DNA of 64,000 bases from Maylandia zebra (lineage: Eukaryota > Chordata > Actinopteri > Cichliformes > Cichlidae): assembly GCF_041146795.1 (NCBI RefSeq), contig NC_135187.1, forward strand, positions 4,227,556-4,291,555, in the 5' to 3' direction. Every line of letters starts with the position of its first letter. Positions within the stretch are counted from its first letter, which is position 1. The notes below the pieces were generated by a model. It was not told the origin of the DNA. It searched no databases and saw only the letters and a list, made by a program, of their open reading frames with translations. Position numbers and translations under genes: made by a program. This document shows positions 1 through 55,275 of the stretch, piece after piece.

Positions 1-660
1 TCCCAGCTTGAAAGTTATAATTAAAGTCTTTATGCTTTCCTGCAGCCCAGCTCAAACAAACGGGGCAAACAAGGGTCATCTTGTTACACAACATTAAATC
101 CCATAAGCCATGTCCATGTTATAATGTTAAAGGGACAGATCACCAAAAAATCAAAACAAAAAAACTATTCATATTGTTCATATTTTCCCTCCAATTCTCT
201 ACATTCATAATGCTCAAAATTTTTTTATGCGTTTCAGTTTTGAAGATATCAGCTGTACCAAGGTCTGCCTTTAATATACATTACTGTAATCTACTGTCCA
301 GTATGGCAGTCACCGTGTACAGTATAAAGAAAAAACTGCAGCAAATCATGACTGTGTGACTTAAAAGAAGAAAATGAGAATCTAGCTAGAAAACTGGGCA
401 CACCAAGTAAATAACTAAAAATCTAGAGGATAATAAAACGCTAACGGCCAAAGAACAACAACAATAAAACATGTACTATGGCTAATGCACAGAGACTTCA
501 GCAATGCAGAAATCACATTTTGATTTTCAAGATTTTAAGAGCCGTTTCTCATGCAGAGGCAACTTTATCCCAGAAACCTTACAGTAGATATTTATGATTC
601 TGATTTCAGCCCTTAAACGTGTCTTTAAAGCAGCACTGCTTTAAGCAGTCTGGCTGTTAC
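1..660. other. phc1 intron at left edge, no exon seen
   Basis: By position this is the intron downstream of the last phc1 exon visible here. A short plus-strand ORF at 81-359 shows no recognisable domain and its composition is like the AT-rich DNA around it. The FCS zinc finger and SAM exons expected next in phc1 are not found and must lie to the left of the window. Confidence 0.6.
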
Positions 661-7500: not shown

Positions 7501-7790
7501 CGTCACCGCTCCGGGTTCGTCCGGCTCCTCCTGCACCGGCTGCCCGCTGCAGAGCGACACCGAGCGATGCAACGATCCGCCGGGCTTCTTGTCTGCGTTG
7601 TGCCCGGTGCTGCTGCTCTTTTCGCCCGTCTTCTTCTTCTTCTCTGTGCAGGACGCTCGAAGCGGCAGCAGCAGCACTGATTTTACTGTTCTGCATAAAT
7701 TTGCAGCTGATGTGTGGAAACGCCTCCTTCTTTTTTCTGCTCGGCCCTTTCCGGCGCTGCACGATGACGGAGCAGGACGGGGACAGGGGC
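7501..7790 (-). promoter_or_regulatory. phc1 noncoding first exon and promoter region
   Basis: On the minus strand a strong donor (GTAAGG after GGTGACG) ends at 7501. The DNA upstream is GC-rich with many CpGs compared with its surroundings, as expected for a housekeeping promoter and 5' UTR exon. The transcription start cannot be placed exactly. ORFs on both strands here (for example 7427-7762 and 7589-7891) are explained by GC content. Confidence 0.55.
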
Positions 7791-8229
7791 TCACTTTACC
7801 CCCAAAGGCTTCGGGATCAACATGCTTAGCATTATCTCAAACTTCATGTTTTACTGGACACCAGAGTAGTTTTGCATTTTTCACAACTTGACATGATACT
7901 TGTTCATCCTGCACCTATATTCATCTGACACAAGGTGGTTCAGCTTCCTCCCCCTCCCTTCCTTCTGATTGGCTGACACTTAACAACAGAAGGTTTGAAC
8001 GGCAGGTGGGTGGAGCTTCTTTTCCTGAGATGACCATTTTAGGGATATCTTGTCTTTATAACTTCATACTAATAAAAAAAAAGGTATACCTGTCTGAAGT
8101 CAAGTGTTTAGAGCAATGTGAAGGAATTACTTGTGGACACACGGATCTCATTATTTTTAACTTTGGCCATGTTTAATATGAATGTCCACCAATGGAACAG
8201 GAGATATAAGGTATGATATATAAATATAT

Positions 8230-12000: not shown

Positions 12001-13618
12001 ACTAAAAAATGTCCACTATGTCATTTTCCCTTTGTGGAAAAAAGTATAATTTAAAATAAAAGCCCATGAACCATCACAGACAGCTGTGTCACCCGTTATC
12101 CTTACAGTATTAGCACTTCCCCCTTTAATGGTCTCTGCCCATTCTCAGCTCACTGAGAGTTTAGGATTTTTTATCTATTCTAACATCAGCTGTGACAGAT
12201 ATAAGTGTTCTGCAGGTAAATATAGTTTCGATTATTCTGTAGGTTAGACATAAAGCGCTATTGTGCTCAATGACTTCTACGTTGCTGATTTTGGCTCTAT
12301 TGCTTGCGTTGCCGCTTCTCTGGTTAACAAGGTGCATTAATGCATCTAAATCTCTGAGCTACATTTTAGGTGATGGACACAGAGCTTATTGCAAACTCTG
12401 TGTCCCTCCTTGGGGCAAATCTGGAAAGCACTACAGTTCTTTGTTTGATTTCTAACTATATACTCTATACAAAAATCAGTTTCTAAGGTTATAAATACTA
12501 TGATAATTTTCCCTTTAACAAAATAATATACATTGCACGCTACCCCACCGTAATCTACGTGTGTAAAATAATTAAAAGGGTTTTTGTTTACAGGACACAG
12601 TCCTAAAAATAATAAATCTTTGTATATATTCAGTGTCTATATAAACATTATATAGAATAATTATAACTTTAAATTCTCTGGTGAACGGGACATTTTTTGG
12701 AGTAAATTTGGGATTCATCACCAACTACATCAACTCTAAGATCAAAGATGAAGCAGAACACCTCTGCAATTGTCAGTTATTACTGAGGGTGGCGCCAAAC
12801 TCCAAGTAAGCAAAGGCATAGTAGATTACAGCTTTGGCCATCTTATGAGCTTTCAGAATTTCTACAGTTAGCGTGACCTGTGCGGCTGTTAAATCCCCGC
12901 CGTGAAGAGCCGATTTCAGGTTGTGTGTTCACCATTTCTTTGGCTTTGCTCTTCAGAGCTCTCTGTGAGCACTTAATGAAATGCTGAAAGCAGAAACTGC
13001 AATTATCCTTTCAGACCTGCGATTTGAGAACGTTTCCATATACATAATTGCAACAAAATCTACAATAATATACGAACTACAGCTAAAATATACACGGCAC
13101 TATACTGCCCACTACGACACATGTCTAATATTTTAAACAGAAGTGTGTCAGTTTAAAAAAATGTGGATCATTGTTATTCTAACATCACTCAGGCCTGAAC
13201 TCAAACACCTACACCCCTTCATAAAAGCGTCATCATTTCACCTTGACTGTTACCCGGCACCTGCTTCAATTTTGTTTTACAGTGTGTCATCCTGAGACTC
13301 ACTGCCGTGTTGAAAAAGAGTCACACTGTCAATGAGTGCAGTTGAATTCCTAGGAATGTATGTTTCTTTTCAAAGGAAGGGAGGATTTAAAAGAAGGAAG
13401 CGTGAGAACGTTCAGAAAAACAAGAAGTCCAAAGTGCGATGATGAGAGCAGAAAGTAGGACCTTTCAAAGGTACAAACCCATGAACTCGTAACGCTATTG
13501 TTATCTAAGCCTGCTGTAAAATAAGCTTTAGTTCCAATTTAGAGTATGTCTAAAATTGCTGTGGCTCTTCCTTCGTTTATAACCTCTCTTATCCATTAAA
13601 ACCTCATCTACACCTGCT
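9060..13618 (-). other. Probable long 3' UTR and downstream flank of slc2a3
   Basis: About 4.5 kb downstream of the slc2a3 stop codon, AU-rich, with no exon and no recognisable transposon. Possible polyadenylation hexamers on the minus strand occur in several places, including near 9060. An ATTTA-rich cluster lies at 11097-11134. How far the transcript really runs cannot be settled from sequence alone. Confidence 0.4.
11097..11134 (-). promoter_or_regulatory. AU-rich element candidate in slc2a3 3' UTR
   Basis: On the minus strand this reads as a cluster of overlapping ATTTA pentamers (ATTTATTG, ATTTATG, ATTTATTTATG, ATTTA). If the slc2a3 3' UTR reaches this far, it would be a typical AU-rich mRNA stability element. 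Confidence 0.4.
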
Positions 13619-16600
13619 CTACTTGCTCTCCTGTTTAGCTTCAAGAGGTGTGGTCTCAGCCACCGGAGATGGAGCTGCTGCTGGTGCCTCCACCAGTGGG
13701 ACCTTCTCCTTCACAGGAGAGGCAGGAAGTGTCACAGCAGTGCTGGCACTGGCTGGAGGATCCTCGGTGGACGAGGAAGGAGGAGGTGCGGCACTACTAA
13801 AGCCACGAGCAATCTCATCGAAGGTCTTGCCTTTGGTCTCGGGCACTTTGATGAATGTGAAGATGAAAAAGACGATCAGTAAGCCGGTGAAGATGAGGAA
13901 CACCCACGGGCCCAACCACCCCTGAGGAGAGGAGAGAGCAGAGTCAGAATGATCTACAGCAAAATAAACCACAAGAAAAAAACGATCACCTCTCCCTTAC
14001 TTGAAGTGTGGGGAAGCTCATTCCAACCAGGAAGTTAGCCGTCCAATTACAGCAGCCAGCCAAAGCCATGGCTGCCGGGCGGGGCCCCTGGGAGAACAGC
14101 TCGGCCACAATGAACCATGGGATTGGACCGGGGCCCAGCTCAAACATAGCCACAAAAAGCATGACAGCCAAGATGGCCACGTAGCTCATACCAGGGATTT
14201 TATCCTGCACAGACAAAGAGAATGAGCTACTACTGCAGGATCACAAAGATTAGCTTATCTAACAGTTAGTGAGAGCATGCAATGGTGAATTATTTGCTTT
14301 TCAGTGGAACTAAGTATATTTATTTGCTCCTTAATTATTTATTATTTTGTTTTTAAATTTTTTCCTACGTTTCCACATCTTTATACAAACCACTGACTGA
14401 AAATGGCAAGGGACAAAAATACAGAAAAAAGTAATAATATTAAATAGAATAATTAACCAATTAATTGCTTTTAAATATGTAAATGCTATGGGAAATAACT
14501 GATGGAAATACTGCATCGGCCATTCAATATAGCAACAAAACCAAACAGCTGATGTTGCATTTACTTTTGTTTTGGCTGTGGAGAGAATCAATCACATCTT
14601 TGTTCTTACTCCGTCTCTGTATTGCTCTCTGACGTCACCAAACTCACCAGCAGGAGGGACACAGTCATAAGCAGAGCGCTAACCGCCATCCCACCCAGTC
14701 CCAGGAGGTGCAGAGTCCTGCGCCCTGCTTTCTCCACTAGGAACAACTGTAGGACAGGGACATTGTGAGTGACGTGTGCTTCCCAGCGCACACAAACGCA
14801 TACCAAGATGAAGAAGACACACGGCGGCGTCACTCACAGAAACAATGGTGAAGATGGTGTTGACGACGCCGGCTCCGATGGTGGCGTAGATCGGCTTCTG
14901 CACACCGGCTGAGGAAAAGATCCCAGTGGAGTAATAAAACACCTGAGTGAGGTAGAGAGGATGGAAGTGAGAATATGAGGGATGTAATATTACCTCATTT
15001 ATAACAGTATCAAAATAAATGATGCATATTTTATTTTCCCGCTGACCTCCATCTTTTATAAACCAATTTTTCTATAGGATCCTTCTGGGAGCTGCCAACA
15101 GCGAGAATATAACAGCCCAACCTACCCAACATCCAGGAATAATAGCTACACACAGTTTTATAGCATGACGTTGCTTATAAGACATTTTTTAGTCAAATAA
15201 CAACCTTTAGAGGACTTTTAGCCAATATTTTTTTCAAATTAACTAAAAGATCCAGACATGTAATAACAAATGCTCAGAGCGCTAAACTGCCCTCCATCTG
15301 TGACTCTGACCTGTGGTTTGAGCAATACCTTCTAGCACTGCTGTTATTTTTATTTTTATAACGTATATTTATCAGTTTTATTATATAGATTTTTTTTAAA
15401 ATGAAGGGCACAGGAAGAGCTAAAAATAAACATTAAGCTTCCATCCATCCAAGTCAGGGCCACCAGGGAGGCTGGAGCCCATCCCAGCACTGTCACAGGT
15501 TGCACAGAGGCAGGCAATCACTCTTGTTTATATTCACAACACAGCCAAATTCACCAATTAGCTTAATGCCATGGATGTCTATGGAAGGAAGTCAGAGTAT
15601 CCGAAGTAATCCCACACAGGGATAGGGAGAACAAGCTTCTTTCTGTGAGCTGACAGCACTAACCACCGCAAAGCTGCACCAAAAACAGACAATAAAACCC
15701 ATTAAACTTACAGCGTTAATTCCTGACAGCTGCTGGGAGAGCTGCAGCATGACGGCGATGAAGAGGGGCTGTCGGTACGCTGCCGTGCGGAACAGTTCAG
15801 CGATGGTTACTTTCTTCTCCTTGGCCATCTTGGCGCTCTCCTCCTTCATCTCCTGCAGATCTTTGCTCACATCCTCAGAGCCACGCAGACGCACAAGCAC
15901 TGCGGACAGAACAGAGACAGGTTTTGTTCACCTTTACAGATGCAAAAGACAAAAAAACAAAACAGCAACAACAAGAAGATGTAGACATTCAAGAGTAACA
16001 TGCTGGAACAACAACTTACAGCTATCGGACAGAATTCACCACAGTTCATGTGCAGATTAATTTTCATGGATGTTTATCACACATCAAACTCAGGACAGGC
16101 TCCTGGAATCCATGAACTGCATTTTAAAATGAGCTATAATCTTATAATGGCCACCAGCAGGCACTACACAGCAGGATTCACACAGGCTGAGTTCAAAGTC
16201 TTTTCCGACATAATGTCAGAGTTTGTTTATTTAAAAAAGACAATCTGCATATTTATTCCTTCACAAAAGATTGTGAGTTATAGCAGCTTTGTTTATCGTA
16301 ACCTTTATTCATAACATCAGGACACATTGCTAAATTTTGCTTTCTGTAGAGAATCTGCAGTCACTAAACAGTCACAGTAACTGTGTTTGTTTATCTTATG
16401 GAGGCATGAAGGAGAAGTGGGTCAGGGCCTCAGAGTCAAACCAAACAGGCCACATGTTGAACAGATGCCAAAACCTTCTGTCTGTTCAAGGACTCTCTGA
16501 TCACGCTCGACCTTCCTCCTGACTCCGCTGATCCCACCTCTGTGTATCTGTAACGAATCCCTCTCCTTCTCACTGCTTCTGTCGCTGTAATGCTGCAGTG

Positions 16601-19600
16601 CTGTAGTAACTGCTGAGTCGTTCCAACATTATTACATGAAGACACTGTGTTAGTCAATGGGACCATCTCAAGGTGGTCTTTAGCAGTAATGCTGGTGCTA
16701 ATAGAATACATATTATAGTGTTATAGGTGCCGTGGGGATAGAGACAATAAAGCTAACAACAGTGAATGACTGAAGTTACGTTTCTATTGGTGGTAGTTTA
16801 ATTTAGTTTATTGAAATCCTTATTATCCCCATTAGTAGCAGTTATACAGTAATAGTAGCATTTACAAGACTATACTTGGTATGTGTTGTGCTTCATATAT
16901 TTTAAGGTAAAGTGATTAATTTATTAGTAGACAGTTTCTTTGCTCTTACTTTGAAAGGCCAGCCACTGCTAATGAGCTAGCTCTTGCTAGCTCAGCGTGT
17001 TGTGATGGTTTTGAATATAAGTTTGCTAACTCCAGTCTCTTTTCTTCTACTGCAGCTTCCATTCTGCTCTGGGCTTCTACTGTGAGGTGGTGCGCCATTC
17101 TAATCAGAAGCTAAAAAAAGGTGGTGCTACTGTGACCTCACTGAGGCTTCAGAGGAGAGAGAGAAACACCACCACCAGGTGCAATCCAAGATGTTGGAGT
17201 CCATCCATGCACAGCAGCAGGAAATGCAGTAATGTTGTGTGTCATTGCAGTATATTTATAGATGTATTATTGTGTACCGTTGCGTGCCTCCTCTTCCTGT
17301 TTGAGGTTGATGAGCAGGAAGCGGGGGCTCTCGGGACAGAAAGGCAGCAGGATGCATTGCAGGACAGCGGGGGCCACAGTCAGGGCCAGCAGCAGAGGCC
17401 ACAGGTTGTCTGAACCCAGCAGAGCTTCCAGACCAAAGATCTAGACATCAGGGGACACAGAAAAAGGGTAAAACTGATAAAAACAATAAAACTCAATCAG
17501 TTTGAATGCTTACTGTGTATCCTAGCTGATATCCTCTTGTAGATACTACTATGTAGTAAGACAAGACTAAAGAATATCTTGTTTTAAATTCATGCATAAC
17601 TTTCATATTTCACGGCCTCACAGTTCCTCCACCCCTCCCTGACCCTGGTTCTCCTGGAGGTTTCTCCCTGTTAAAAGGGAGTTTTTCCTTCCCACTGTCA
17701 CCAGGGGGCTTCCTCATAGTGGGCCATCTAATTGTTGGGGTTTTCGCTGATTTATTGTAGACTCTTTACCTTACAATATAAAGCACCTTGAGGTAACTGT
17801 TGTTGTAAATTTGGCGCAATATAAATAAAATTGAATTGAAGTAGAATCACTGTAGTGATCACTTTGGGCGGCTTTTGATCTTTGCTTTGTCACGTTGGCT
17901 TTTTTTCATTTGTAAAAACTAAAAGAAAGATGGTTTGTCCTCATTAGGAATGACATTTGTCTTAGCGTGTGGGACTGTATCCTAAGGTTTCTGTTGTTAA
18001 ATTGTAATTAAGTGAACTTTAACTTTCTGGAAAAGTGTAATGCATTGTAATGCATTTCTTTTCTTGAGTAACGACCACAGCGATGATAATTATCCATATT
18101 AATTAATAATGAATTAACTCCTATAACTCAAAGACTTCTTGATACAAACTAGGTTTAGCTCAGATGCCTGAAATGAACCTAATATACATGTCTTCTGAGC
18201 TTTGACTTAATAAACTTTCAATTCAACTACATTTGATTAAATAGCACCAATTTACAAGAGCAGTCACCTCGAGGCACTTAATATTGTAAAGTAAAACCCC
18301 TGCAGCATTAAACAATCAGATCCGTGCAAAGCTTACTCCAGCAAATTACATTAATTTCCTAAAGCAGTCAAGCAGTCACACATCTCTAGTGTGCAGTTTT
18401 TAGTAGAGCTGCTGACCTGAGCGATCAGGATGCCCACAACCACGCCGAGCTGGTGCAGAGTGCCGAAAGCTCCGCGGAGCGGCGTTGGTGACACCTCGCC
18501 AACATACATGGGAGTCAGGCCAGTAAAAAGGCCACAGAAAAGGCCAATGACCAGACGCCCAGCGATCACCATCTCGTAGGAGGAACAGATGGTGGAGAAG
18601 CCCATAAGGAGGCCGCCGATCACTGCCAGAGAGTTCACCAGGATCATGGAGCGACGCCTGAGGATGAGGAGGTTGAGGAAAGAATATGAATGTTAATGAT
18701 TAAAAAAACAAAAAAATGTACAAAAAAACTCCACAACTTGATGCTAAAACGTTTGACAAAGGAAAACTAACATTTTCAACCAAACTCCAGGGAGGAAAAT
18801 TAAAGCTAATGTAGAAGCCCCAAAGACTGAAACTCCTGGAATGACGTCTCAAGGCTGGTTCCAAAAGTATCCATAGATTTCCATGTTAAAAGGCTTAACT
18901 TTAGTCGAAATAAAAACAAAAAACAGTTTAAATACAGTTTAGGTTATATGGACACCATCTTTTCATTTTGCTAGCCAACACTAGCATTAGCTGTGTGTTA
19001 ACTTCCCAGTAACTTCACATGGTGACTGGCAGCAGACTCACCACAAATAAACAATTTAGAAGGAAATGGAGAAATAAAGGAACAACTCTGGGGAACGTTA
19101 GAGCAGAGCAGCGAACTCAGGACAGACACGCTTCATGAGATCCATTAACAGTAATGGGCTGTGATGGTTCAGCTGTACCGAACAGGAAATGCACAGAGCC
19201 AATGTAGTGAAAAACACTGCTGTGACTTAATGTCCACAAAACTGCTCTAAAAGTAAAAACAACAGTTCTTATAGAGAGGCTGTAACTAAAAGGTTTTTTG
19301 GCTAAAGATGGTGAAAGAAAATAAATCTTGCATGTTACCTATAATATTACACAACAGGATGAAGAAGGTTTCGTACCTGCCAAACCGGTTAGCTATGACA
19401 CCAACACTAAAGGAGCCCACCATGCCGCCCACACTGAAGATGGAAACAGCAACGCTCCAGACAATGGTGCAAACACCAGGGTCGATTTCCTCGTTATATC
19501 GCTTATACCAGGTTACGTTGAAGAAAGATTTGAGTTTCTGTAGGCAAAGATGGATGCACAGACAGAGGATGAGAAAACAGATCAATTCACAGAACTGGCC

Positions 19601-20463
19601 AGACAGAAGAATAGACAGAACATTATAGTATTTGGTATTTTATGTGTTCAATAAACAAAAAAATAACTATATTTAAAACGAAGATAAAGTTAGAAAGTGA
19701 GAAAAGTGGGTAAATGGAGAGATCTGTTTCAACCAAAACAACTTTTTCAAAGAGGGTATTTTTGTTATTTATTCTTTCACATTAATAAAGCACTGACTTT
19801 TATCTCTTAGTTAAGTAAAATAAAAATCTCCCCCAAATTAACACAAACATTTTATAATTTAAGCCTTAATATAATTCTGATGTAAATTTGCTTCTCTGAA
19901 AACAAGCAAAATTAACCCTTTAAAGCCAAGCGCATCATATTTGATACATGTGTTTTTAAGACTTCTACATATTCAGTGTGACAAAAAATGATATAAATTG
20001 CATGACACATTTTTAATGACTAACTTGCAAATATATGTCTGATGTAGCAAATGTGATACAAATTAAAACTCATATATGCAGATTAAGATTTGAGAGATTT
20101 TTATATATTTTGTTTAAAGGTTCAACAAACACTCCATTATCCAAAAAAGTTTTCTGGCAGTTATTTCACGGTTCAGGTTTTAAAGGGTTAAAATGCAGTG
20201 ATGTGAGCACCACAGTTCCTCTGTTATCTTGTGGTTTATGTTCAACCCACCTCGGCTGTAATGCTTGAGAAATCAGATATTTGTATTTGCAATCTTTACA
20301 ATAACTTATATCTCCTACAGTATGAAGCCTACATCACATTAGATTGCTAATATTCACCAACCATCTCTGGAGCATTGATGACTCCTGTGTTGTAACCAAA
20401 CTGCAGAGAGCCGATGACGGCGGTGGCGAGGGAGAACAGGAGATAACCTGTGACCTGCTTGTC
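13619..20463 (-). CDS. slc2a3: Facilitated glucose transporter GLUT3
   Basis: Twelve-helix plasma-membrane hexose uniporter of the SLC2A family. Exons in transcript order: 20362-20463, 19377-19537, 18417-18657, 17278-17440, 15712-15899, 14838-14942, 14648-14746, 14001-14204, 13619-13921, about 520 codons, all phases consistent. Visible hallmarks: [11 protein letters not shown] in helix 1, an NVTW glycosylation site in the first outer loop, NRFGRRRS after helix 2, [28 protein letters not shown] at the end of the first half, QQLSGINA with the QLS glucose-selectivity motif, [20 protein letters not shown] and VPETKGKTF. The C-terminal tail is long and rich in Pro, Ala and Ser. The donor of exon 20362-20463 is weak (GTTGGT), but the join gives INAPEM-KLKSFF as expected. 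The start codon is not in these exons; in family members a small first exon supplies it, and a candidate lies at 28661. SLC2A1 is the main alternative; linkage to phc1 favours slc2a3. Confidence 0.92.
15430..15570 (+). repeat. Dispersed teleost repeat, copy 1 of 3
   Basis: A CCATCCATCC start, a GGCTGGAGCCCATCCCAGC core, a ...TCACTCTTGTTTATATTCACA stretch and TTCACCAATTAGCTTAA match a very common fish dispersed repeat. Diverged copies occur near 42680 and 52325. It lies in a slc2a3 intron. Confidence 0.5.
17611..17842 (+). mobile_element. LINE 3' tail (L2/CR1-like), truncated
   Basis: Contains GTTAAAAGGGAGTTTTTCCT, then ...ATATAAAGCACCTTGAGGTAACT... and ends in ATAAATAAAATTGAATTGAA. This is the familiar 3' tail of abundant teleost non-LTR elements that end in short ATTGA repeats. 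Only the tail is present, as expected for 5'-truncated insertions. It sits in a slc2a3 intron. A small related scrap (AAAGCTCTTTGAGGCGACT) is at about 43840. Confidence 0.7.
19912..20191. mobile_element. piggyBac-like MITE with TTAA target duplication
   Basis: The segment is bounded by TTAA on both sides. Inside, CCCTTTAAAGCC at the left end is mirrored by GGTTTTAAAGGG at the right end, one mismatch over the 12 bases. TTAA duplication plus CCC-starting inverted repeats is the piggyBac signature. There is no transposase ORF. It lies in the slc2a3 intron between exons 20362-20463 and 19377-19537. Confidence 0.7.
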
Positions 20464-22289
20464 CTGGACGGAGAAAGAAGGGGAATGAAAGGAGGAAGAG
20501 GAGAAGGGAGAAGAAGAGGTATGACAAAGATATTGAATATGAAATTTTATATCATAATGGGATTTTAAATCATTGCAGGAGGCAGACAGATGCAATAAAA
20601 TGCAGAAGCTGACGCCAGACAGGTCAGAGATGCAGCGTCACAGGAGCAGTGATAGCAGGAATCAAACGGTGAAGTCACTCGGGCTGCACGTAGAAGCGCT
20701 CACATGTAGGGACACACACTTACTCGTCATCTTTGAACTCTAATTAACATACCTGCTGCTACCACAAATCACTGCTATTTATTCTTCAGAGGACGTTCTT
20801 AAGGTTAAAGGCAAATAGAAAAATCATGAAAAGATATACTCGAAACAATAATACACAAAAAACTCAAGTGCCTTCTGGGTAGAGCCATGGCTCTGTGATC
20901 AGCTGTTTTCCTGCTTGTGTTTGTCCTTCCTGAAGATAATCAACTGAATGCAGACGAAATTCAATCCTGAAGCCGTCATCTGGTCCTGCAACAGAACCGG
21001 GCCTCATAACACAATCTATTCATCTATTTAATGAAATTAGGGTGTGTGATAAAGGAGCCATCACTGTTGTTATTGCAATCAGATGTTCGTAAGCTTCAGT
21101 AATGCTGATAAGATATGATGAAGAGTTTTATCAGGGTGGGTTTGCTCTTTAAGTATCATGCTTCTGTTATTGCTTTTACTGCTTTTATTTCTAAACTGAA
21201 ATAATGGCTTAATTAAGATTTACTTTTGCCACATTACCCTTATCTTAAGGATAAATAACATTCTTTCTTTTGCATTATTTGATTAGTTGTGTTCCATAAA
21301 CCCAGACTCTGAAGGTCTGAAGCTAGTCTGCTACTCCTGGTTCTGGTTCCAAGTCTAGATGGGCATCCAGCGTAAAACCTAATCAAATATGTCGATCCCT
21401 CTGCTGTGGTGACCCGCTCAGCAGCTGAATGCGTTTTTTGAGTGATGATTCTACACGTGCAACTTTTGTCCCCATTATCATCAAAATGTAAGTTATAGCT
21501 TGCTCACTATTCATTTAGGTAAGCACTTAAAAATAACTGCCTGGAGGCATTTTCAGGTTGACTGGCAAGAGTTGCTTCTGGAAGGACTTTGGTACAACCA
21601 GGTGCAGGATATTTGTTCTGCTTGAAAAGTTAGATTCAATATTTGTGAGTCTGCTATATTTAGAGTGCAGATTGCCCTTCACTTTTCTTCATTGCCTTCT
21701 GCACAGTGCAATGACTTTAAAATCATAATTGAAATACATTTAATATAATAAGCTTGCTATGGATTATGCTAAATCAACAGCACAATAAAGTGTGCAGGAA
21801 ATAAAATCCCTGTAGCTTTTTCTCTCTCCCTCTGATTGGTCGTGTTTAACCAACACCCCTGAGACAAAAAAAATCCTGAGAAGTGCAGTGTACGCTAATA
21901 ATATGTGACCTCGCCGTGATATTGTTGTACCAAGGGCAGCATATCACCTGAGGCCCATCGACATCTCTATGCGGCCTCAAAAACAGCAGTCAGTTCCGCC
22001 CCGTCAGCAGTGGGTCTCCTTATTACCAGCTGCATGCTGAATTACTAACATCAGCAGAAACAAAGACACAGTGGCCCAATTTCTGCTGCTGTGACCCAGT
22101 TTGACCTGAATCTCATGACTAGGATCAATTTCTCAAACATAAGTATAGAGTTCTTTGATAAAGTCGACCTTCATTGACCCTTGATTGTTAACAGGAGGGA
22201 TTAAAACAACAGCGCCATCATGAAAACTGTGCTTTGAGATCCATGATAAGTAACTGTGATCTGTATAGGAGTCTAATGGGAGTGTAATG

Positions 22290-36093: not shown

Positions 36094-39000
36094 TCAGGTC
36101 AGAGAAGCTTGCCTCCTCTCACAGATCGTCCGCAGCTTGTTGGAGCATCTGAAAGTGAACCAGCTCCTGCTGTACACGACCCTCGGGGTGAGTCGACCAC
36201 ACAGATCCACACTGCTTTCACCCGCGTTATCCGGGTCGCGTGCCCAAAACCTGCAACACACACTTTATTCTGTTACCGTGGCAACCGATTCTCTGACATA
36301 TGATAATGTTCATAATAAAACTCCCACAGTGTTTTAATCCCCTCACAGTAAATCCACAGTGGGAAGACACCGTGGTTAGGTTGCTTAGGAGTGAAATTCT
36401 CAGCTGCTTTGCAAATCTCACTTATACATAATCCACAATTACTGATGTGTGATTACCTTTTGTAATCTCACTACAATGTTGTGTTTTACTGAATTCAAGA
36501 CCAAGACCTCCAGATTCCAGAGTTCTGATCGGGTATGCTCAGTATGTGCCACACAAAGAAAGCCTCAGAGGATCTTATCCCCCAGTGTGGGGAACCACAA
36601 CACAAAGATATTGTAATAATATTCATCAGGTAGTTTTAATATTGTGGCTGATCAGTTTAAATAGTATATACAAACAGGAAGGGAAAAATGTGATAATATT
36701 TGATTCCAACAAATATTTTACTGCTACTTAAATCTTATGCTTCTTATAATTAACTACTAAATGTTATTTGATTGTGTTGTCATCTTTAAAATTAAGATCA
36801 AACTCATATTCCATTATTGTTTATTATCTGCTCTTTAATTTGAGCATTTTACTTAAATTCTGTTCATCATTGTTGATTCTCAATTGTTTAAATGCACCTG
36901 TTATGTTATTATTAATAGCACTATTAATATTATTATTATATATATATTAATACTACTATTCTTACAATTGCTATGAATATTGCTAACATTGCTATTACTA
37001 ATATTATTATTATTTCAACTGCTTTTGAAAAATAACAGACAAATTATTGGATAAAGTAGTTATTGTCTTCTTAAATCCCAAATGGGAGATAACAGGTTAA
37101 AGGAATGTGGCAGAATGAGATGGTGAAAACTGCACCAATGAAACCAGCTCCAAACAAGCGCAGCAAATGACAGATGACATTAAAGTGGCTCGGTGTAATT
37201 AATGTGAATGTATTTTTATATTTAGACCATGAGGAATGTTTGACTATGAACAGGGACACATACATTTTTAATATCTAGTCCTCTCATAGTTTTGTGTCCT
37301 GACAGCTGATCTGGCAAAATGTCCTCAGCCTGAGACAAACTTAAGGAGGAGAGATCAGCACATACTTGCTCTTCACCTTCTGAGCCCTGTTTGTCCTGCA
37401 CCACCTCCTCCTCTTCCTCATGCCTGTCATCATACTCACTGTGGTCCCTTCTCCAGCAGTGAGCCATCGCTCCACTGCCAGCCGCCGTCAGCGCCGCTGC
37501 TCCTCAGGCCTACCCAGTATGAGTCCCCCTGACTCAGACTCTGGGTCTTCTCCCACAGGAACTCCTGAAAAACATGTCAAACGTTACCATTTTGCAGAGA
37601 GAAGCCTTAATTTCATTCCTTAAGAACATTCTCTTTACTGTTGATCAATCAAGAACACAAACTGTCTCACATGTACAGTAAAAGAGCGAAACACAAAACC
37701 TCATTTGACCTCAAGCACTGGCCGCTCCTGCAGACGTCTCCATATTTCATAGAGGCCTTAAATCTATTCTTAACTTCTCTTCCTGGTGGTATGAATCTGT
37801 ATGTCAAATAGTGTGTCCAAAAGGTAGGACATATCAGGAAGGGCATGTCAAATATTTACAACTGGACAGAGACTGAATATGTCATTAATGCAGGGAAGAA
37901 GATTTGTGAGAGGAGAAGGGTTCCAGCAAAGCTAATTTAATATTTATTATGTGCTTGATGAATAAATATAAACTGGAAATGACAGGACAGAGCAGGTGGA
38001 CAGAGTAGTGTGTGTGTGTGTGTGTGTGTGCATTCACCTGCTCCTCTTCCGTCCTTATTATAGCCATGACGCCCCCCAGTGCCATGCAGTGGTACTGACT
38101 ACTGATCCAGTCAGCTCTGTCCTGGCTGAAGAGGAAACATTTCTGTCCCTGAGGCGTCCAGCCAGGTAAGCATAGGCTGCACTCTCTTTCTGAGTGAACA
38201 ATAATAATAATAATAATAAAGAATAGGTAAAAGATGTGGCTCAGATTACTCACCCCTCAAAGTTTGTTTAAATCTACTTTAAGCTTCAAAAGACCTTAAA
38301 TGTCAAGCCAGGGTAAGTTTCAGCAGTGATTTGAAATTTTCTAGCATCCTGTACATCTCAGTACAGTATTACTGTTCTCAGTATGAAATAATCCTACAAC
38401 AGCACTGAAATCATGACATATTTTTCAACAAACTGCATTTTGAGTGTGTAAATGATTAAACAACAATACAGTGCTCCACAAGCAAGACTTAAATTTGGAT
38501 TGTGTATTAGCTACAACCGTTTAAAAGTTACTACAGCCCGACAGTCTGAAGGTGTTAATGTCAGGTTTCATTCTGAAAAGCCTGTAATAGTTTTATGGTA
38601 GTGTGTTTTTATGTTGTGTCATAAGTAAGTGGTATAAATATGTTTTCTACTTTATTTATATCACTGATTACAGACTGAAAACAAACAGACTAATATTACA
38701 CATCCAGTTTCACTGGTTTAAATCAGTTTATCTAACATACTGGAAACTCGTCATATGTAATATGACACAAAAGCTCAAAGTGGATCTGTTATCTGAATCT
38801 GAATCACGCTCGAGTTGTTTGTCTTTTTCACAGCATAATGGAAATCAGAGCTTCTTTGTTAAATGGGTTTTTTGTAAACAGTTGTCTATATTTAATCTGC
38901 CGCTTGTTTGGCAGCGTGACTGGGACATTATGTGGTTGAAAGAAAAATGACCAAACTGAAACTGACATTTCTCTCTCACAAACTCGTCTGTGGTTAAATA

Positions 39001-45212: not shown

Positions 45213-48200
45213 TTAGTGGCAGGGATCAAAAGAAAGCTCAGTGAGGCCTCCGTGGAGCTCAACCGACTCCTCCGACCATGACATGACATCACCAACAAGG
45301 TGGCCGCCACAGGTTGCTTGGCTGTAAATCTCACTGGATGTCAACACTCTGGACCAGAACTGGAGGTCTGACAGCTCTCCCACAAAAGACTGAGTGACGT
45401 CAAAGCGGCCTCCCATTGTGTCCTGTGGAGGGAGAAGCAAATGTGTCAAAATGTAGAGCTGATATTTAAAATGTTACTACCTTCTAGGGATTAGAAAGTT
45501 GTTCTATAAGATATGAAACTGGTAAAAATGACATTTTTAGTTTGACACAAATTTGATTTGTTTCATCAGTAAAGCCGAGGCCCTAAAAATGAAGCCAATA
45601 CTAGAATGTCTTAACCCTGCTTTCTTTCTAATGACCAACATCATTTAGACAATAAAGATTCAGTGCATATGTTTATATCTACTGAAAGGCACTATACAAA
45701 GTCAGCTGTTTCAAAAAAACTTAAAAAATTAAAACTGACAACGTTTGGCCTTACAAGCTCAGCTCTCCACACTACAGACAGACTATCAGTCACAATAAAG
45801 AGACCCTCTTACAAGTCCAAGGTTTAACATATCCAGATGCCATAAAATAATCTGGTCCTTAGCCAGTCTTAAATGAGATAGATATAACAGATGAACTACC
45901 AAACATGACATATTAGATCATATCATTATTTAACAAAAATTAAATCACAATGCAGCAGCAGTATTGATACGAATTAAAAAGGAAAGTAGGAGCCAGGTGC
46001 TGGTAATCTATAGAAGCAGAAGCTTTAGCATTTTTCAGGTCAGGAAGTGTAACACAATGCCAAGAACAAAACATATGATCAATGATCAGAAACACTTGTT
46101 CCTGCCCATCAGTCTGGAAAGGATTATAAGGCCATTTCTGAAACAAGTTCAAGTCCATCATTCTACTGTTAGACAGATTATTCACAAGTGGAAAGCAGCT
46201 GCCAATCTTCACAGGAATGGAGGCCATGAAGTGCTCAGAGAAAATGCACAAAAAACGAAAACCTCATCTGAAGACTGTAGAGGCCTCACTTAGCATGTTA
46301 AATGTTAAAAGCTTAAGCTTGCAAGTAAGTTACAAAACAAACCACAAGACAACTGCAACAATGTCCTTTGGACAGATGAAACCAAAGTGGGAATGTCTAT
46401 ATGCAGAAACCAATCACTGCTTATCAACACATACGTCTAATACACTGTCAAGCACGGTGGTGGAGGGGTGAGGATTTGGACTTGTGTTGCAGCCACAGGA
46501 CACAGGCACTTTGCAGTCATTGAATTAACCTTGAACTTCTCTGTATACCAAAGTGTCTAATATGAGGCCATCTTTTCAACAGCTAAAGCTTGGCTGACAC
46601 CTGCTCGTGCAACATGACAATGATTCAGAGAATGAAAGCAAATCTACAACAGTATGGCTGAAAAAGACAAGAATGCATTGAATGCATTGAATGCAATACA
46701 ATGCAGAATTACAAAAGCCCAGTTAAAATCCACACCTCAGTTTCATTAAAATGCTGTGGTGGTTAAGGCAGCTGTGCATAAACGAATTCCTCTAAGAGTC
46801 AAACAGATAATTTTACATGAAGTTACTGCCACTAATGCTGGTTCTACAAGATGCTTTGGTTTAGTTTTTATTAAATAAATAATGACCCACACATTTGACT
46901 TTGTATTTACTCAATTTAAAACCTCTTATAGCAAACATTGGGGTATAAAATGAATTGGCATACCTATATCTGCTGACATAGTCTGTATGTGACATTATTA
47001 TCCCACAGTCAGAAGGCATGTTGTGTGTCATACCTGCTCCTGACCAAGGATGAAAATCCCTCCTGGTTTGATTGGGTGCCAGGCTGACAGGTTCTGCCCT
47101 GTGCCTTTCTTTGCTCCATCCTGGTAGGCCTCCCAGACACCATCACGTGTGGACCACGTCACGCACACGTGATGCCACTTTTCATCTGTCATAGTTATGG
47201 GCAAAGTCGCCGCCTAAAGAACCAGGTGGAGAGACAAAAAAAAAGAGATTTTATTTATTTATTTACTTATTTTTTAATTTTTATTTGGAAAAACGTCTCA
47301 TAACCTTCAAGTAAAAGATTATCCAAGGGTCGCGATGGCACGGTTTACACCTGATCAAGCCTTAAATGATGTGAGATGTTATCATGTTGATGGAGTAAAA
47401 AGAAAAAAAGACTGATAGCCTGCCATTAATTTTGCACGAGTATTCACACAGTAGCAAGCCTTATCTGCAACTGTTATCGATTGTCGGGAAAGTGGATTAA
47501 TACAACGTGTGAATCTTCTCTCATTTCATCCTCATAAAACATTGTAGAAAAGTAATTAAACTCTTAGATTAATCTACATTCTGAGATCATTGAACTGTGT
47601 CAATGATCAGTTTGATAACTGCCAAGTGTGTGACTCACAGACAACAAACACGTCAGTTTATCCCTCCTGGTATTGTCTGTGCTACAGACAATTAGGCCAA
47701 TCAATTACAATAATCAGATTATTGTGTTGTTCGTTTGTTTGTTGAGCTCACTGCACGAAGTACTGGGGCACAGAAGGGAAATAGACAAACACCTGTCTTC
47801 CGTTTAGGGGAGAATTAAAGATTAGGAAGCTAATTGACTAATTGAATTATTTGTTTGTCAGCAGTCTGACTGGGTTACTGTCTGATTACTGTCATTTGAA
47901 CTGAGACATCTGCAATCTTTTTCTAGGAGAAACAACCGAAAGACAATTGCAGGGGCTCGTTATATATGTCTAATCTGCATTAGAAGTATACAGAGAAGTA
48001 CCAAAATGTGAACAATTTGTTACAAGTGAAAACAACCAAAATAAATATAAAAATGTTTAAAAAGTCAAAATCAATGTATATTATGCCAATGAAGTTTGAG
48101 GATATTATACATTTTAAGAAGACTGTTTTAGTAAAACTAAATAATAAATACATAAATTACAGCAGATATTCAAAATGCTAATCACTGTTAAAAGGAACAA

Positions 48201-51200
48201 CCAGTAAATGAGCTCTATAGTTTTTGTGTATGAATTTGAGTATGTGATTGTGACATGAGATGACAATATTATATATATCATTTACATTGCTCTGGAGTCT
48301 TTACTAGAGAAGTTTTTGGCTAGTTGAGAAAAATATTCACACCCGAGTAAATTTGGCAGATTATCATCTAGCTCTGACTCTTATTTCTTGGTGGTACGGT
48401 ACTACTAGCTGTCAGTAACACTGGTCATGTTGGTGAAAGTATATTCTTTTCTCTACTTTGGTACAGCCAAACTAGTGTGGAGTAATGCTGAACTTATACC
48501 TTGTTACTCTTTGATGCAGTGAAACGTGAGCTAGTTCTAAATCATCATCACACATTAGCAGATAAAGTCCTTCTTTTGCTCACCACAAGCAGTTTATACA
48601 ACCCGACCCTGCTAGACTTTGATTAGTCAGGATAACCTGGATTGTATGTGGTCTACAAACAGGAAACCAGATAGCTTCTGGGACCAAACATCTTCTGACT
48701 TGCCTAGAGATTCTTCACATTGATGTGCAAGTATTTTCTTACAGTGATAAATTATTTAGTGACTGGTAAAAAGATCCCATAAACCTTTGCACTATAGGCT
48801 GAGCTTCAGAACTAGCTTTTGTGTCCAGATTCATCAACATTTAGATCATAAATCACTGTGACATGACATGGTGACAGGCTTTACCTTGTCATTAATTAGC
48901 AGCTCCATGGGATTGCTGCCCCATTCAATTAGTACCAGCTCATTAGCTTGCCCGGGCACCGAGTAGGAGAAGGGAGTGCCAAGACCAGGACCTGCACCTG
49001 CCTTCAGCCACAGGCAGATGGTCAAGGCAAAGATCTCCGTCACCACTGACCGCCTCATCCTGCCATACATGTAGTTAGTCCTCATGGGGAAGTCTAACAG
49101 GAAGGCAGTGGGACTCTTTAGCTTTTGGTTCCCTGGTGAGATGGAGAATAAATTTAGAGTCATGTTATTCATTTGTGATCAACAAATACTGCTGTCAAAG
49201 ACTTTTGTTAGACTATTTTCTATATGCATTAGAAACAAACAAGTTATTTTTTTCTTTTTCTTGAATTGTTCCTTTTTCTGACCCAATTATTATGGAGATA
49301 TTCTCTATCTACATGATATCAATATAATTATTAAAGGCAAAACAATGCTCTGTGCTTGCTTTCATCATTCATCATATAAATGAGGTAATTATGGGTCATA
49401 ATAATCTACTAGCACCAACCACAGCAACCTAACTAATGGGGTTTTTTTTTATAGGGCAACCTCCAATAAAAGCCGGATAATAGTAGGTACAAAGATATTC
49501 TGTAATTATTAAATAATAAATGAGAATTCAAATTCATCCCTAAAATAAATCATGAGTGTGTGTAGCTATGTCTGTGTGTGCATGTATGTTTACCATGGTC
49601 AGTGCTGCTGTGGTGCAGTTGGCTTAGTACTGTTTCCAGCTTGCTGTGTCCAGTGCCCCTCAGACTCGTTTCTTTACTGGTGTAAGGAAGCCGTCGCGGG
49701 TGATGATCATTGTCATGGTGGTGGTCATCGTGGTGGTCATTGCCATGATGGGTGTCATGATGATCATCGTGGTTGTCATGATGATCATCATGGTGGTTGT
49801 CATGGTATCCAGGTCGATGGTGGTAATCGTGATCTCTGTGATGACTGTCATCATGATGACCATAGTGATCATCGTGATGATCGTCATGATGGTCATTATG
49901 GTGGCTGCTGAAATGATTATAATGCCGACCATGGTGCCCATCATAGTGGTGGTCACGATGGTGATCACGATGGCGATTATGGTGTCCAGTGTGGCGGTTG
50001 TACCAATGCCTATTCTGGTGGTTGCTGTGATGGGTATTGTGGTGGTCCTCATGGTGGTCCTCATGATGGTCATCATGGTTGTCATCATGATGGTCATCAT
50101 GGTGGTCATCATGATGGTCATCATGGTGGTCATCATGGTGGTCATCGTGGTGGTCATCGTGGTGGTCATCATGATGGCTATTGCCATGGTGGCCATCATG
50201 ATGGCTATCATGGTGGCTGTTGCCATGATGGTCATCATGATGATCTCCATGGTGGTCATTATGGTGACCATAGTCATGGTGATCTCTGTAGTACCTGTGT
50301 AGCTGTTCCTCTAAAGCATTGATCTTCCTCTGCAGAAGTTCTCTCAGGGAGCTGGAATAGGAGCTGGAGGAGTTCCTGGCCTGTAGACAAAGAAAATAGT
50401 GCTTAATAACTATACCTACCTATAAATGATCTATTACCTCCACAGAGTGAAAACATCAATCCAATCAGGTTCTGCTATACTTTGTGTACTTAAAACTGAT
50501 AATCCCCATCAATGTAGTAACAATTTCTTCTATTTAAACCACAGCAATAGCAACAGAGTTCAACAGGTCCTGCTGACATTGTGGGGGATCTTCATAGAGC
50601 GTCTCAGCGATTTGTGCAGGGCAAAAATGATGTCAGCACTGACCTGGCTCACTTGAATAAAGAGAATTGGATTTTGGATTATTGCTGAAAAAAGGTCTCA
50701 AAAATAGAAATTTAGAATATGTAGGTGTTTTGATAACTAGTATAATCATCACAAATCTAAGGACCCTTTAGGATTTTTGAAAGATTAAGTACCTTTATAG
50801 TAAAATGAACTATGGTAGTATGACTTTAATGTTCCCACCACAAAGCTCCTATGTGTGGCATCATGACATTTAATGTCCCTGAAGAACTTGGGTTTCCTGA
50901 AGCAGGTATTTGGGTATTCAGTTTCATATTTTAAAACAAAATGTGAAAACATGTGTAGGACTTGCGTTAACCACAGACCTCATTTGAAACATTCCAAAAA
51001 TCTATTTAAGTAAGGCACTGATTTCAAGACAAGGCTATTTCAAACTCATTACTGGAGAAAGATACTGACTTTAACTGCATGATTGTGACTCCTTGTCAGT
51101 TTTGTCTATTAGCAAAACTATAAAAAAAGATGTCAAAGAAAAGGACTGTAGGGGGAGAAAGGTGAGTGCTGGTAATAAGAGTTTTACAACAACAACTTTG

Positions 51201-54200
51201 CATTTTAATGCTTTAAACAAGAACCAAAGGTTATATCAATACAATAGTACAAGAGGAACTTCAGTATGACATTTAAAAGTGCAGGGGGAAAAGTTTTCTT
51301 GTCCTCTTTTTTCCTCTCCCTCCTTCATCCTCGTCTTCCTCACCAGCAAATCCGACTTTGTTCCCTGCCAGCACACGCCACGATTAATAGCCTTGTCAGG
51401 AAGGATGAAGCTAATTGAAAGTGAGGTTGGCTAGCGCCCTTCGGTGCATGGCCAGAGGCTGGTGGTGTAGACATCCTGTTAGAGGGAGAGGCTGAGGGTA
51501 AATCCTGGCACCAGTTCTGTTTTGTCTCACACCTTCAAGTGAGATCGAAAGGGATTTTTGGCAACACTTTCCCTCAGCATGACCTGAGACCACCTACACT
51601 AATAATGAAGCTTTTACAGGCCAGTTGGCAGCCAGGTTTAAGACTCACATTACGACATCAGAATAATGAAACTATAACCAAAGTGAGACAGCAAAACCAC
51701 TTAAATAGTTGGGAATCTGGAAGGATTATAACAACTGTAAAAAACATCATTAAGATGTTTATTGCTTTGTAAGTTTATGTTAATGAATTTAACATTATTG
51801 TCTTTTTAAACAACACAAACACTTGATATGAACCAGAGTTATGTTTTCATTTTAAGAGACCTCTAGCCCTTGTCTTAGTAAGTGCCTGTATCATTTTTCT
51901 TGGTGTTGTTCTAATATGTGTTTAATGTTGTAGAGGGTCTCATTATAAATTAGTTTTTGGTGTTTGAACCCAGTGAGGGGGTTGATATGTTAATAAAGTA
52001 GTATTGGTCTGTATGAAATTTTCCCCATTCACGACAGCTATATGGGGAGTGAATTTTAATATGCTTTACATGCTGTAATGTTAACAAATCTGATAGTTGG
52101 TTCCTTTTTATCTTGTTCAGCTTTTGATTGTACTTGGGGTATTTTGTTCTATGTCTGTTTTCTACCAGCCAAAGTTGTCGTAGTAAATTATAGACACCAT
52201 GGTGATTGTAGTAGGTTTGGGTAGATCAACACCCAGTCTCCCAGTCGAAAGTTATACATGTTTGGACATTCCTGTTCTATTATACTGGAAACCCATGTAA
52301 AATTTGTTGGAGGACTTATTAAATAGGAATTCCATCCATCCATCCATCTCTGCTGCTTATCCTTATCAAAGTCATTGGACGGCTGGATGAGAGGTGGGGT
52401 ACACCCTAGCACCCTAGACTTTCTTGCTGTGAGGCAACGGTGTGCTTTGGAAAGTCTTTGAAATAACTGACTTTCTATGTCAATAACTAACTGATGCTGT
52501 TTGAGGGGAGCTGGAGCCGAATGATTCAGTTTCTTTTATTTTATAGTGACAGAAGAAATAAAGATGGCTTGGAGAACAGTGAAGGAAATTGCAGGACTTC
52601 ATGGAAAGTTTTGAAAATATGATCCTGTAACCTTATTGCAGTTTTCATTTGCACTCTTCCACATCCTGCTGGCTGTTAGACAGTCGTGGGTTTCCAGCAT
52701 GACTGTACTTTTGTGAGAACCACAAGACAAAACTTTGATTTGCATTTGGTATGAATTCATTATAACAATGATTAGTAATTAGCTGTGTAGGGTAAACATT
52801 CATTTTAAATATATAGTTATATTATAAATATATATTATTTTAGAGAGTGTTTTTAGAGAGAAAGTGATATGTTTGTGTGTTCGTGTGTGTAGTGATTTAC
52901 TTTAAGGCAAGAGATTACACACAAGTTCAAACACAAAAAAGCTAAACCAGTATACAAGAATTACTGGGGAAAAAAGATTTTTCTTTAATCTAAACTCTTT
53001 GTCATTCTGTCGGTGTTTAAATACTATAGACTGCTTGTTTTCCACCAGGGGAGCTTAACTTATCCTACTCCTGCTGGCACACAGAGGTTAAGATCAGGGG
53101 TGAGAGCTAATCAACTTAGAGCTTCTTCCTGTTTTGAGCTCGACCTTGGCCACTGATATCCAGGAGAAAGACAGAGAACGATGCAGAGACATTAACTCTG
53201 AGACAATAGTCAAGCAGCTTTCATATTAGCATTGTGGGTGGTACGTGTTTCATAGTGACTGGTGGGTGGTTTGTGATGAGTGTGTGAGACAGATTGCCCA
53301 CAACTTCTGAATGCTATTTTTTTTAATTTCCCCCAAATTATTACAAAAACATAAATTAAAAAATTAATGATTTAGTCCTGAGAATATGCATTAACTATGA
53401 TGCAGTAAAATGTACAACATCCATAGAATAACCTTCAGGTTACTATGTCCTAATGAAACATATCCCTCGTTTTGGCAGCAGATAACAAAGGCAGCTGATT
53501 CGGTGACTGAGCATGTGACTCTCAGTGACGTAAGACGTGACCCCAATTAAGTCAAACCTTTAATAGACTTCTGCTTGTCTGCAGCTTTTCTTTGCAGACA
53601 CATTATAGACAATTTGAATTTTCTTTGTGCAAAAAGTGTAGTAGGTAAGGTTTATAAAGTACACATACGCACTCACAAAGTGCCTGACACACAATTACAA
53701 TTAAAAACAAATAAATGAATAAATAATTAAAAGAGAAATAGTAAAACAGATACATAAATAACATGAGAGCATTAAGAAAGCGCAACTCCACCCAAATGGC
53801 GCGGACCACAATTACCACGATTAAAGCAGCTCGAGCTCTTATTGGTATCTACCATCACACAAAATTGTGATATTTCAAAACATGGGGACCCTAGACTGTT
53901 AACAAACAGATACTAAGCTCACCAATGACAGCACTCAAACTCCACTGATACAAAAAGGCTTTCAATGAACAACAACAATGAACAATGCTGTGGATTATTC
54001 ATTGCTGTGCATTGTTTCTGCCCTCAGAAAGCTTGGAATAGTGAAGAGGTCCAGGCACACACGGTAAAGTCACCGTTTGGTAAGCTAAGATTTTAACAGC
54101 CATTTCCCTCATAATTTATTGCAGTGCAATCTCAGTTTAATTACTCGGTTCATACTTTTTAGTATTTCTCCTGCATAACTGAGGAAGATATTCAGTGGAT

Positions 54201-55275
54201 GTTCCCATGCAGCTCAGACTTTGGCAAGTAGCTCTCATGCATCTTTGAAATTTAAAAAAAGGTCATTGTGCAGCAATTTTTAAAGCATGACACTTTTAAA
54301 AATTGCAAAACAAATCAAACTGAAGATACTGCATGGTCCCAGTCACCTGTCCTAGTGCGCAGTGAGTTCATTTATCCAGTTGTGATTTGTTTTTATTAAG
54401 TGCTATTAAGTGAGTACGCTACAAAAAATGATCAAACTATAATCTTTCATGCTTACCTGCAAGTTCTCCAGCCTCTCCTTTAGTGTCTGCAGGGTTTTTC
54501 CAGTCTGTTCTGGAGAGAAGGAACTGTGTTTGCTATATGACGAGCCCTTCCTGTTGTGGTCCAGTCTGTGGCTGCCGTGGGAATAATGGTGGTCATTGCT
54601 GTGATATCCTGAAGGCCCATGGTGCAGTGACAATGATGCATGATGGCTGCCGTGATGTCCATGATGGTCGTCATGGTGGGTACCGTGATGGTTGTTATGG
54701 TTGTTATCATGATGGTTTTCATGATGGTTTTCATGATGGTTGTCATGATGGCTATCGTGATGGCTATCGTGATGATTGTCGTGGTGGCTGTCGTGATGAC
54801 TGTCATGGTGACCAGTGCTGTGGTGACCCCCAAAGCCCTCACATAAGGTGAGCTTAGCATTCAGCTCCCTGATTGTCTCTCGCTGGTCCAGGATGGTTTC
54901 CTTCTGCCTCACAAGGCTCTCACGCAAATGCAGAATAGTGGCTTTGGCCTCGTCGGACATCATGCCTCGCCTGCTCCCGCCATTGTGGTCACTGCTATGG
55001 CTGTTACTGCTTGGTCCATGGGGCACATTGGGTGGTGAGAAGCAGCTGGGATCTGCTTCTGGGGGAATGGGAGTACAAACAAATTTGGGGCTAATGCCAT
55101 AATCATATTCTATGCCAGGTGAACTACCTGCTGCTGCTGCACATGAAAGGAAGTAATAGAAAATAAGAGATCGTAGGGGGATGAAAGGGAGGACAAGCCC
55201 CAGAGTAGCTCCCACCCGTTGCACGTGCTTTGTAGACAAAGGCATTTGGCTCAGAGGACGGACGTCTCTGGCCAT
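45213..55275 (-). CDS. Neuronal pentraxin with two giant His-rich inserts
   Basis: Secreted or membrane-anchored pentraxin; neuronal pentraxins cluster AMPA receptors at synapses. Exons: 54457-55275, 49594-50380, 48885-49132, 47034-47213, 45213-45422; 2244 nt, about 747 aa, against about 430 in NPTX1/2. All phases fit. Residues 22-50 form a hydrophobic signal or anchor ending CAAAAG, then FVCTPIPPEADPSC. Coiled-coil segments: about 107-145 (RQKETILDQRETIREL), 258-273 (LQTLKERLENLQ), 285-300 (LRELLQRKINALEEQL) and a short KLETVLSQLH near 525. The pentraxin domain (about 537-747) has MRTNYMYGRMRR, GTPFSYSVPGQANELVLIEW, the signature HVCVTWST, WHPIKPGG, LGQEQDTMGGRFD and FVGELSDLQFW, closest as I recall to NPTX2. 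His tracts lie at about 151-240 and 307-500, each in a linker between coiled coils. No clear promoter is seen upstream of the ATG. I place it in the NPTX family with confidence; the paralogue is open. Confidence 0.93.
46030..46860 (+). pseudogene. Degenerate Tc1-like transposase
   Basis: Plus-strand frames read RPFLKQVQVHHSTVRQIIHK (a Tc1 HTH-like block), then, after a frameshift, TMSFGQMKPKWECL and SNTLSSTVVEG, relatives of the Tc1 W-SDE-TK and N-T-VKHGGG segments. Stops and frame changes show it is inactive. It lies in the pentraxin intron between exons 47034-47213 and 45213-45422. Confidence 0.65.
49700..50281 (-). repeat. In-frame His-Asp tandem repeat, pentraxin exon 2
   Basis: 194 codons on the minus strand, mostly CAY CAY GAY GAY. 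The core is seven or more perfect HHDD units, with HHED, HHDG, HHGN and HHDN variants on the sides. About 85 residues are histidine. The frame stays open throughout and the tract is flanked by normal pentraxin coiled-coil sequence, so it is coding rather than noncoding minisatellite. Confidence 0.92.
50381..54456 (-). other. Pentraxin intron 1
   Basis: A 4-kb AT-rich intron between the two His-rich exons. Apart from a dispersed repeat near 52325 I see nothing in it. No His-type tandem repeat is found inside the intron, so the two coding tracts are separate. Confidence 0.6.
52325..52425 (+). repeat. Dispersed teleost repeat, copy 3 of 3
   Basis: A CCATCCATCCATC start, CTGCTTATCCTTATC and GAGAGGTGGGGTACACCCT match the family at 15430 and 42680. 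Truncated. Confidence 0.5.
54556..54825 (-). repeat. In-frame His-rich repeat, pentraxin exon 1
   Basis: Ninety codons on the minus strand. The first half is a regular four-residue unit, HHDS, HHDN or HHEN, about ten copies; the second half is looser (HHGT, HHDD, HHGS and YHSNDHH types). About 39 residues are histidine. It starts right after LCEGFGG and ends before the next coiled-coil segment. Confidence 0.92.

Follow-up and report, generated by a model that had tools for sequence, protein, structure and literature searches.

A neuronal pentraxin subfamily with histidine-rich linkers in the cichlid Maylandia zebra

The stretch of DNA analyzed here (the window, 64,000 nucleotides; positions 4227556-4291555 of contig C21, NC_135187.1, in the Maylandia zebra assembly GCF_041146795.1 of 962 Mb and 63 contigs) carries a complete neuronal pentraxin gene. 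It belongs to a fourth subfamily in this genome, beside NPTX1, NPTX2 and an NPTXR-like pair, and two copies of it have survived from an old duplication. The window gene on C21 and its sister on C11 both have a His-enriched linker following coiled coil 1 (CC1), and in both a stretch rich in histidine and aspartate replaces the latter half of coiled coil 2 (CC2). These linkers lie well outside chance and are a long-standing feature of a neuronal pentraxin subfamily; judged from sequence, they are real, unusual and probably under some selection. Our favored reading, to which we give a probability of about 0.45, is that they would act as metal- and pH-responsive tethers. To our knowledge, this subfamily is absent from mammals.

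The window gene and its two linkers

The gene is located on the minus strand (55275-45213) and comprises five exons, every intron being bounded by GT-AG (splice sites were read from the genomic sequence alone). With entry phases of 0/0/1/0/0, the 2244 nt of spliced sequence encode 747 aa plus a stop codon, free of internal stops, and 142 of these residues are histidines. An initial annotation of this DNA had proposed five in-phase exons, about 747 residues and an intact pentraxin domain; the splice borders, the protein length and a match to PF00354 (E 1.9e-31, over the cut-off) all agree with it, and its bounds for exons 1 and 2 are exactly those of the checked model. The parts of the gene are as follows.

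54457..55275, minus strand: exon 1, 819 nt; hydrophobic N-terminal segment, cysteines 67, 78 and 145, CC1, His linker 1 and the start of CC2 (from splice sites, phase, cysteines and heptads)
54517..54828, minus strand: His linker 1, residues 150-253, 104 aa with 40 His (coordinates derived from residue bounds and exon 1)
49594..50380, minus strand: exon 2, 787 nt; remaining CC2, His linker 2 and a short remnant preceding the pentraxin domain (from splice sites, phase and heptads)
49643..50299, minus strand: His linker 2, residues 301-519, 219 aa with 88 His (coordinates derived from residue bounds and exon 2)
48885..49132, minus strand: exon 3, 248 nt; first part of the pentraxin domain (from splice sites, phase and PDB alignment)
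47034..47213, minus strand: exon 4, 180 nt; middle of the pentraxin domain, with GQEQ at its end (from splice sites, phase and PDB alignment)
45213..45422, minus strand: exon 5, 210 nt; end of the pentraxin domain and stop codon (from splice sites, phase and PDB alignment)

The two linkers together hold 128 of the protein's histidines. Tracts of about 90 and 194 residues with some 125 histidines had been described before; their His-rich nature is borne out, and by the present bounds they are longer (104 and 219 aa). They had also been placed between the coiled coils and the heads; by the present analysis, the first begins directly after CC1 and its third cysteine, and the second, instead of lying in an existing linker, stands where the latter half of CC2 would be. 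By a crude heptad score, the window protein shows CC1 at residues 108-148 and a second stretch at 256-309 that ends at the start of linker 2, whereas in three scored paralogs the heptads continue to the end of CC2 (broken in one case by a gap of one residue). Since the heptads stop where the second tract begins, the stalk below the heads appears to have been exchanged for an apparently flexible acidic-histidine tether. At the DNA level, each linker contains a 12-bp tandem array detected by Tandem Repeats Finder, at 54660-54807 in linker 1 (12.3 copies, 76% matches) and at 50040-50266 in linker 2 (18.4 copies, 78% matches).

The pentraxin domain is that of a neuronal pentraxin, as had been proposed, with matches to NPTX1 and NPTX2 chains far above those to other pentraxins. 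Against the PDB, it matches 6ype (neuronal pentraxin-1, 61% identity) at E 2.2e-90 and 9lad (neuronal pentraxin-2, 58% identity) at E 5.6e-90, whereas the other 13 of the 15 matches reach 5.9e-27 or weaker, the best of these being 3flp, a SAP-like chain. The stretch GQEQD..GG.FD.TQ, which presumably holds the calcium-binding residues, is present in the PDB alignment as in NPTX1 and NPTX2. Two calcium sites are given for the PTX domain of NP1 in the available text of PMC12799932. According to the same text, neuronal pentraxin oligomers are linked by three N-terminal (CC1) cysteines, and the smallest unit of NP2 is a trimer held by its coiled coils, from which calcium leads to larger oligomers. 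The window protein shares with NPTX1 and NPTX2 the three CC1 cysteines and a C-terminal pentraxin domain preceded by sequence that scores, if crudely, as coiled coil; it differs from them in its length, its two His-rich linkers, the replaced half of CC2 and its placement in a clade of its own.

The C11 sister and the neuronal pentraxin family

The closest paralog, also intact, lies at C11:23062233-23066536 (L029:1233-5536) and encodes, in five exons, 594 aa with 52 histidines. Its linkers, rich in histidine and aspartate, occupy the same two places as those of the window gene and measure 77 aa (linker 1, 13 His) and 114 aa (linker 2, 27 His and 34 Asp/Glu). The two proteins share 73% identity in the pentraxin domain as well as the exon layout; the N-terminal cysteines stand at 47, 58 and 126 in the C11 protein, and its heptads give the same picture by the crude score (CC1, then the first half of CC2). 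On the other hand, the C11 linkers are shorter (191 residues in total versus 323 on C21) and have fewer histidines, and their DNA contains just a weak 12-bp array (63% matches, score 46, Tandem Repeats Finder). Since they are His-rich although the repeat is nearly erased, the composition has outlasted the DNA repeat. Histidine aside, the linkers of both copies contain much Asp/Glu and little Lys/Arg. The initial annotation had named a relative lacking the histidines, or with a broken frame, as the outcome that would count against it; the C11 paralog, the one relative on which this was tested, is intact and His-rich. Two further features of this protein were seen: its N terminus is signal-peptide-like by eye, and its linker 2 is richer in aspartate, possibly with a different metal or calcium preference.

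A protein search of the genome for the pentraxin domain gave 39 matches from 43 candidates. Eight loci (24 of the 39 matches) show the three-exon neuronal pattern, namely the window gene, C11:23.06, C4:20.2, C8:11.2, C6:40.8, C4:16.4, C6:11.5 and C4:13.9 Mb, and the family analysis covers these eight; the other 15 matches (C3:33184662 and C8:212547 among them) and further places were set aside. Further pentraxin-domain exon clusters occur at C4:34.72 Mb and C11:20.37-20.42 Mb, with internal stops in some matches. In an unrooted tree of 10 rows (the eight loci plus the NPTX1 and NPTX2 PDB chains, the distant rows 3flp chain, L001 and L008 having been dropped), C21 and C11 form their own clade (100/99), C6:40.8 and C4:16.4 join NPTX1 (97/98), C4:20.2 and C8:11.2 join NPTX2 (96/93), and C6:11.5 pairs with C4:13.9 (100/99). 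The proteins of this last pair, which we take to be NPTXR-like, carry an N-terminal membrane-anchor-like segment. The window gene thus falls outside the NPTX1, NPTX2 and NPTXR-like groups, and these groupings define four subfamilies, each with two genes, in no fixed branching order. Within the NPTXR-like pair, C4:13856904-13859264 (L042) has a much longer branch (0.75) than the other copy (0.07) and so evolves far faster.

The earlier suggestion of a separate branch holds within this genome, as C21 and C11 both have the His linkers and the other six neuronal pentraxin genes examined lack them. All four linkers of the C21 and C11 pair are His-rich (40/104, 88/219, 13/77 and 27/114), whereas linker 1 of the six others spans 37-67 aa with 0, 0, 0, 0, 0 and 2 histidines, and the CC2 segment that linker 2 replaces spans 22-26 aa with 1, 0, 0, 0, 1 and 1. 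Beyond this genome, the viral collection gave 2 pattern matches and the prokaryotic collection 8, with 0 confirmed in either, a result that is uninformative on other fish.

The neighborhood of the gene bears on the age of the duplication. A PHC-like gene (by eye) and a SLC2A-like gene, which we take to be PHC1 and SLC2A3, lie on the minus strand at window positions 1-7800 and 13600-20640; a Sugar_tr Pfam domain was confirmed in the latter. The PHC-like exon has only two matches in the genome (25 candidates), the other one being on C11 at 23.91 Mb. For the SLC2A-like query there are 30 matches, the best outside C21 also being on C11 (23.80 Mb, 68% identity), with a copy on C5 nearly as close (66%). 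Both C11 copies lie 0.7-0.85 Mb from the C11 pentraxin at 23.06 Mb. The shared neighborhood could reflect a block or whole-genome duplication, the teleost genome duplication being an obvious candidate for the split. The pentraxin domains of C21 and C11 differ by a dS of about 1.8 (pS 0.68, saturated) and a dN of 0.17, and given this saturated synonymous distance the His linkers look old. The His character marks the subfamily and most simply predates the split, although histidine may instead have been gained in both copies afterward.

The tracts might be absent from the mature protein, either because they are spliced out or because the locus is a decaying gene. The tested tracts are open, or nearly so, in four of the six reading frames, which makes an open frame across them weak evidence alone; the coding case rests on the conserved in-frame flanks and on the C11 paralog. 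By simple consensus rules, exon 1 contains three in-frame donor/acceptor-like pairs. Two of these would remove linker 1 together with part of CC1 and leave no stop, which favors absence. However, the GTGAG..CAG pair, the one that removes linker 1 alone, joins into a stop codon, and by the same rules exon 2, which holds the second tract, has no donor-like site, nor has exon 1 of the C11 paralog, which shares the layout. With the splice sites and the pentraxin domain intact and dN well below dS, absence of the tracts is highly improbable. Their interpretation as unspliced introns or exitrons was likewise judged unlikely from the splice-site scan, which leaves it the two exon 1 pairs that also cut CC1.

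Repeat growth, charge and a predicted tether

The main rival to a metal- or pH-responsive tether is drift in a part that serves as a spacer and nothing more. In this view a flexible spacer, required only to be soluble, would have filled up through tolerated minisatellite growth as a 12-bp CAY-CAY-GAY-GAY unit slipped, the histidines having no function beyond length and solubility. The 12-bp arrays in both exons, the identical units repeated in the C21 tract and the large length gap between the copies speak for it. In the longest C21 run, the 12-mer CATCATGATGAC is repeated identically five times, so recent slippage has also been at work. Gene conversion between the two tracts of the gene was considered as well. 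Against it, the C11 copy is enriched in histidine and aspartate at both places with its repeat nearly erased, sequence of one His-rich kind is found in two separate exons of one gene, and none of the six other neuronal pentraxin genes shows such enrichment. Additionally, transitions between neighboring units, counted over overlapping unit pairs in three tracts (all but C11 linker 1), fall at codon positions 1/2/3 in numbers of 5/8/23 (p 0.0002), and 4/6/17 (p 0.0012) once CpG sites are removed, a synonymous excess at third positions. Repeat growth without function is possible, if on the unlikely side.

Charge was computed with a model in which the histidine pKa is 6.5. The C21 linkers change from +48 at pH 6.0 to -36 at pH 7.4 and the C11 linkers from -0.3 to -26.5, while two comparison paralogs stay between +0.1 and +1.1 over the same range. 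On these computed charges, a pH response would be at least as natural a reading as metal binding. A pure pH switch, with metal incidental, would have the protonated, positively charged linkers pack with acidic granule partners, or attach to anionic matrix where a niche is acid; once released at pH 7.4, they would repel. The charge reversal in C21 and the Asp/Glu-rich, Lys/Arg-poor composition of both copies are consistent with this; on the other hand, the C11 linkers reach just neutrality at pH 6, and dense HHD units are by general chemistry also good metal ligands. We consider a switch of pH only unlikely.

In the favored reading, that of tethers responsive to both metal and pH, the protein would be secreted and would form disulphide-linked trimers and hexamers through CC1 and its three cysteines, presenting calcium-binding pentraxin heads on long flexible tethers in place of a stiff stalk. 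The tethers would be polyvalent His/Asp surfaces (768 linker histidines per hexamer of the window protein, 128 x 6) whose charge would shift on passing from secretory-granule to extracellular pH and which should bind zinc or copper at neutral pH. Spreading, stacking or cross-linking of the oligomers would then make the clustering of head partners dependent on metal and pH, and in the window copy a recent expansion of the 12-bp repeat would have made the tethers longer. The fuller proposal, in which a fourth neuronal pentraxin subfamily has swapped its stiff coiled-coil stalk for long His/Asp tethers and gates synaptic receptor clustering by zinc and pH, seems to us rather doubtful. The plasma-like settings that had been suggested alongside synapses are unsupported in the present analysis.

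Several observations weigh against the favored reading. The C11 linkers show no charge reversal at pH 6 in the model, and the enrichment of C11 linker 1 is modest (13/77). On disjoint unit pairs the third-position excess is milder (6/12/20, p 0.011), which also favors repeat growth, and the longest run of the window copy looks like recent slippage. A 13-row domain tree with distant pentraxin outgroups (without a row for L004) does not recover the C21 and C11 pair, the outgroup branches being very long in that tree. Finally, the two copies are compared with each other and with paralogs of one genome.

Other window features, known systems and meaning

Elsewhere in the window, positions 45934-46471 in intron 4 read like a decayed Tc1/Sleeping-Beauty-type transposon (HTH_SB Pfam match at E 0.0013, below the curated cut-off), and a second open reading frame (ORF) in this region has no Pfam match. 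An ORF at 37885-38256 appears by eye to be a C-type lectin-like domain exon and has no Pfam match at E 0.1. The Rfam scan of the window at gathering scores returned no match.

A keyword search of literature titles and abstract beginnings, with most subscription papers outside its scope, found no description of a His-rich pentraxin. Some annotation of the gene as such very probably exists; its His character and the sharing of this character by two old duplicates seem undescribed. Histidine-rich glycoprotein resembles the window protein in its way of working, being by general accounts an extracellular protein whose long His-rich stretch is linked to zinc and pH, but its fold and repeat differ and homology is not claimed. 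Zebrafish nptx1l is possibly the same gene as the window gene, which is a guess going by the name only. Its expression is placed in cranial ganglia, spinal cord and pharyngeal arches, and not in the forebrain, in the available part of PMC4690400. Related genes are mentioned in the accessible portions of other papers, nptx2 in PMC9073690, nptxrb in PMC9227717 and nptx1 (described as neuronal pentraxin-1-like) in quantitative polymerase chain reaction on brown trout skin in PMC8770521, with nothing decisive there for the window gene.

Clustering of AMPA receptors and a stepwise assembly tuned by calcium are described for neuronal pentraxins in the available text of PMC12799932. A subfamily with His tethers built in would lend itself to asking whether zinc or acid at the synapse can tune pentraxin assembly, and the genome offers a ready control set of two copies, one with long and one with short tethers, and six paralogs without them. 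It is also a case in which a low-complexity composition seems to have been preserved across an old duplication as the underlying DNA repeat eroded.

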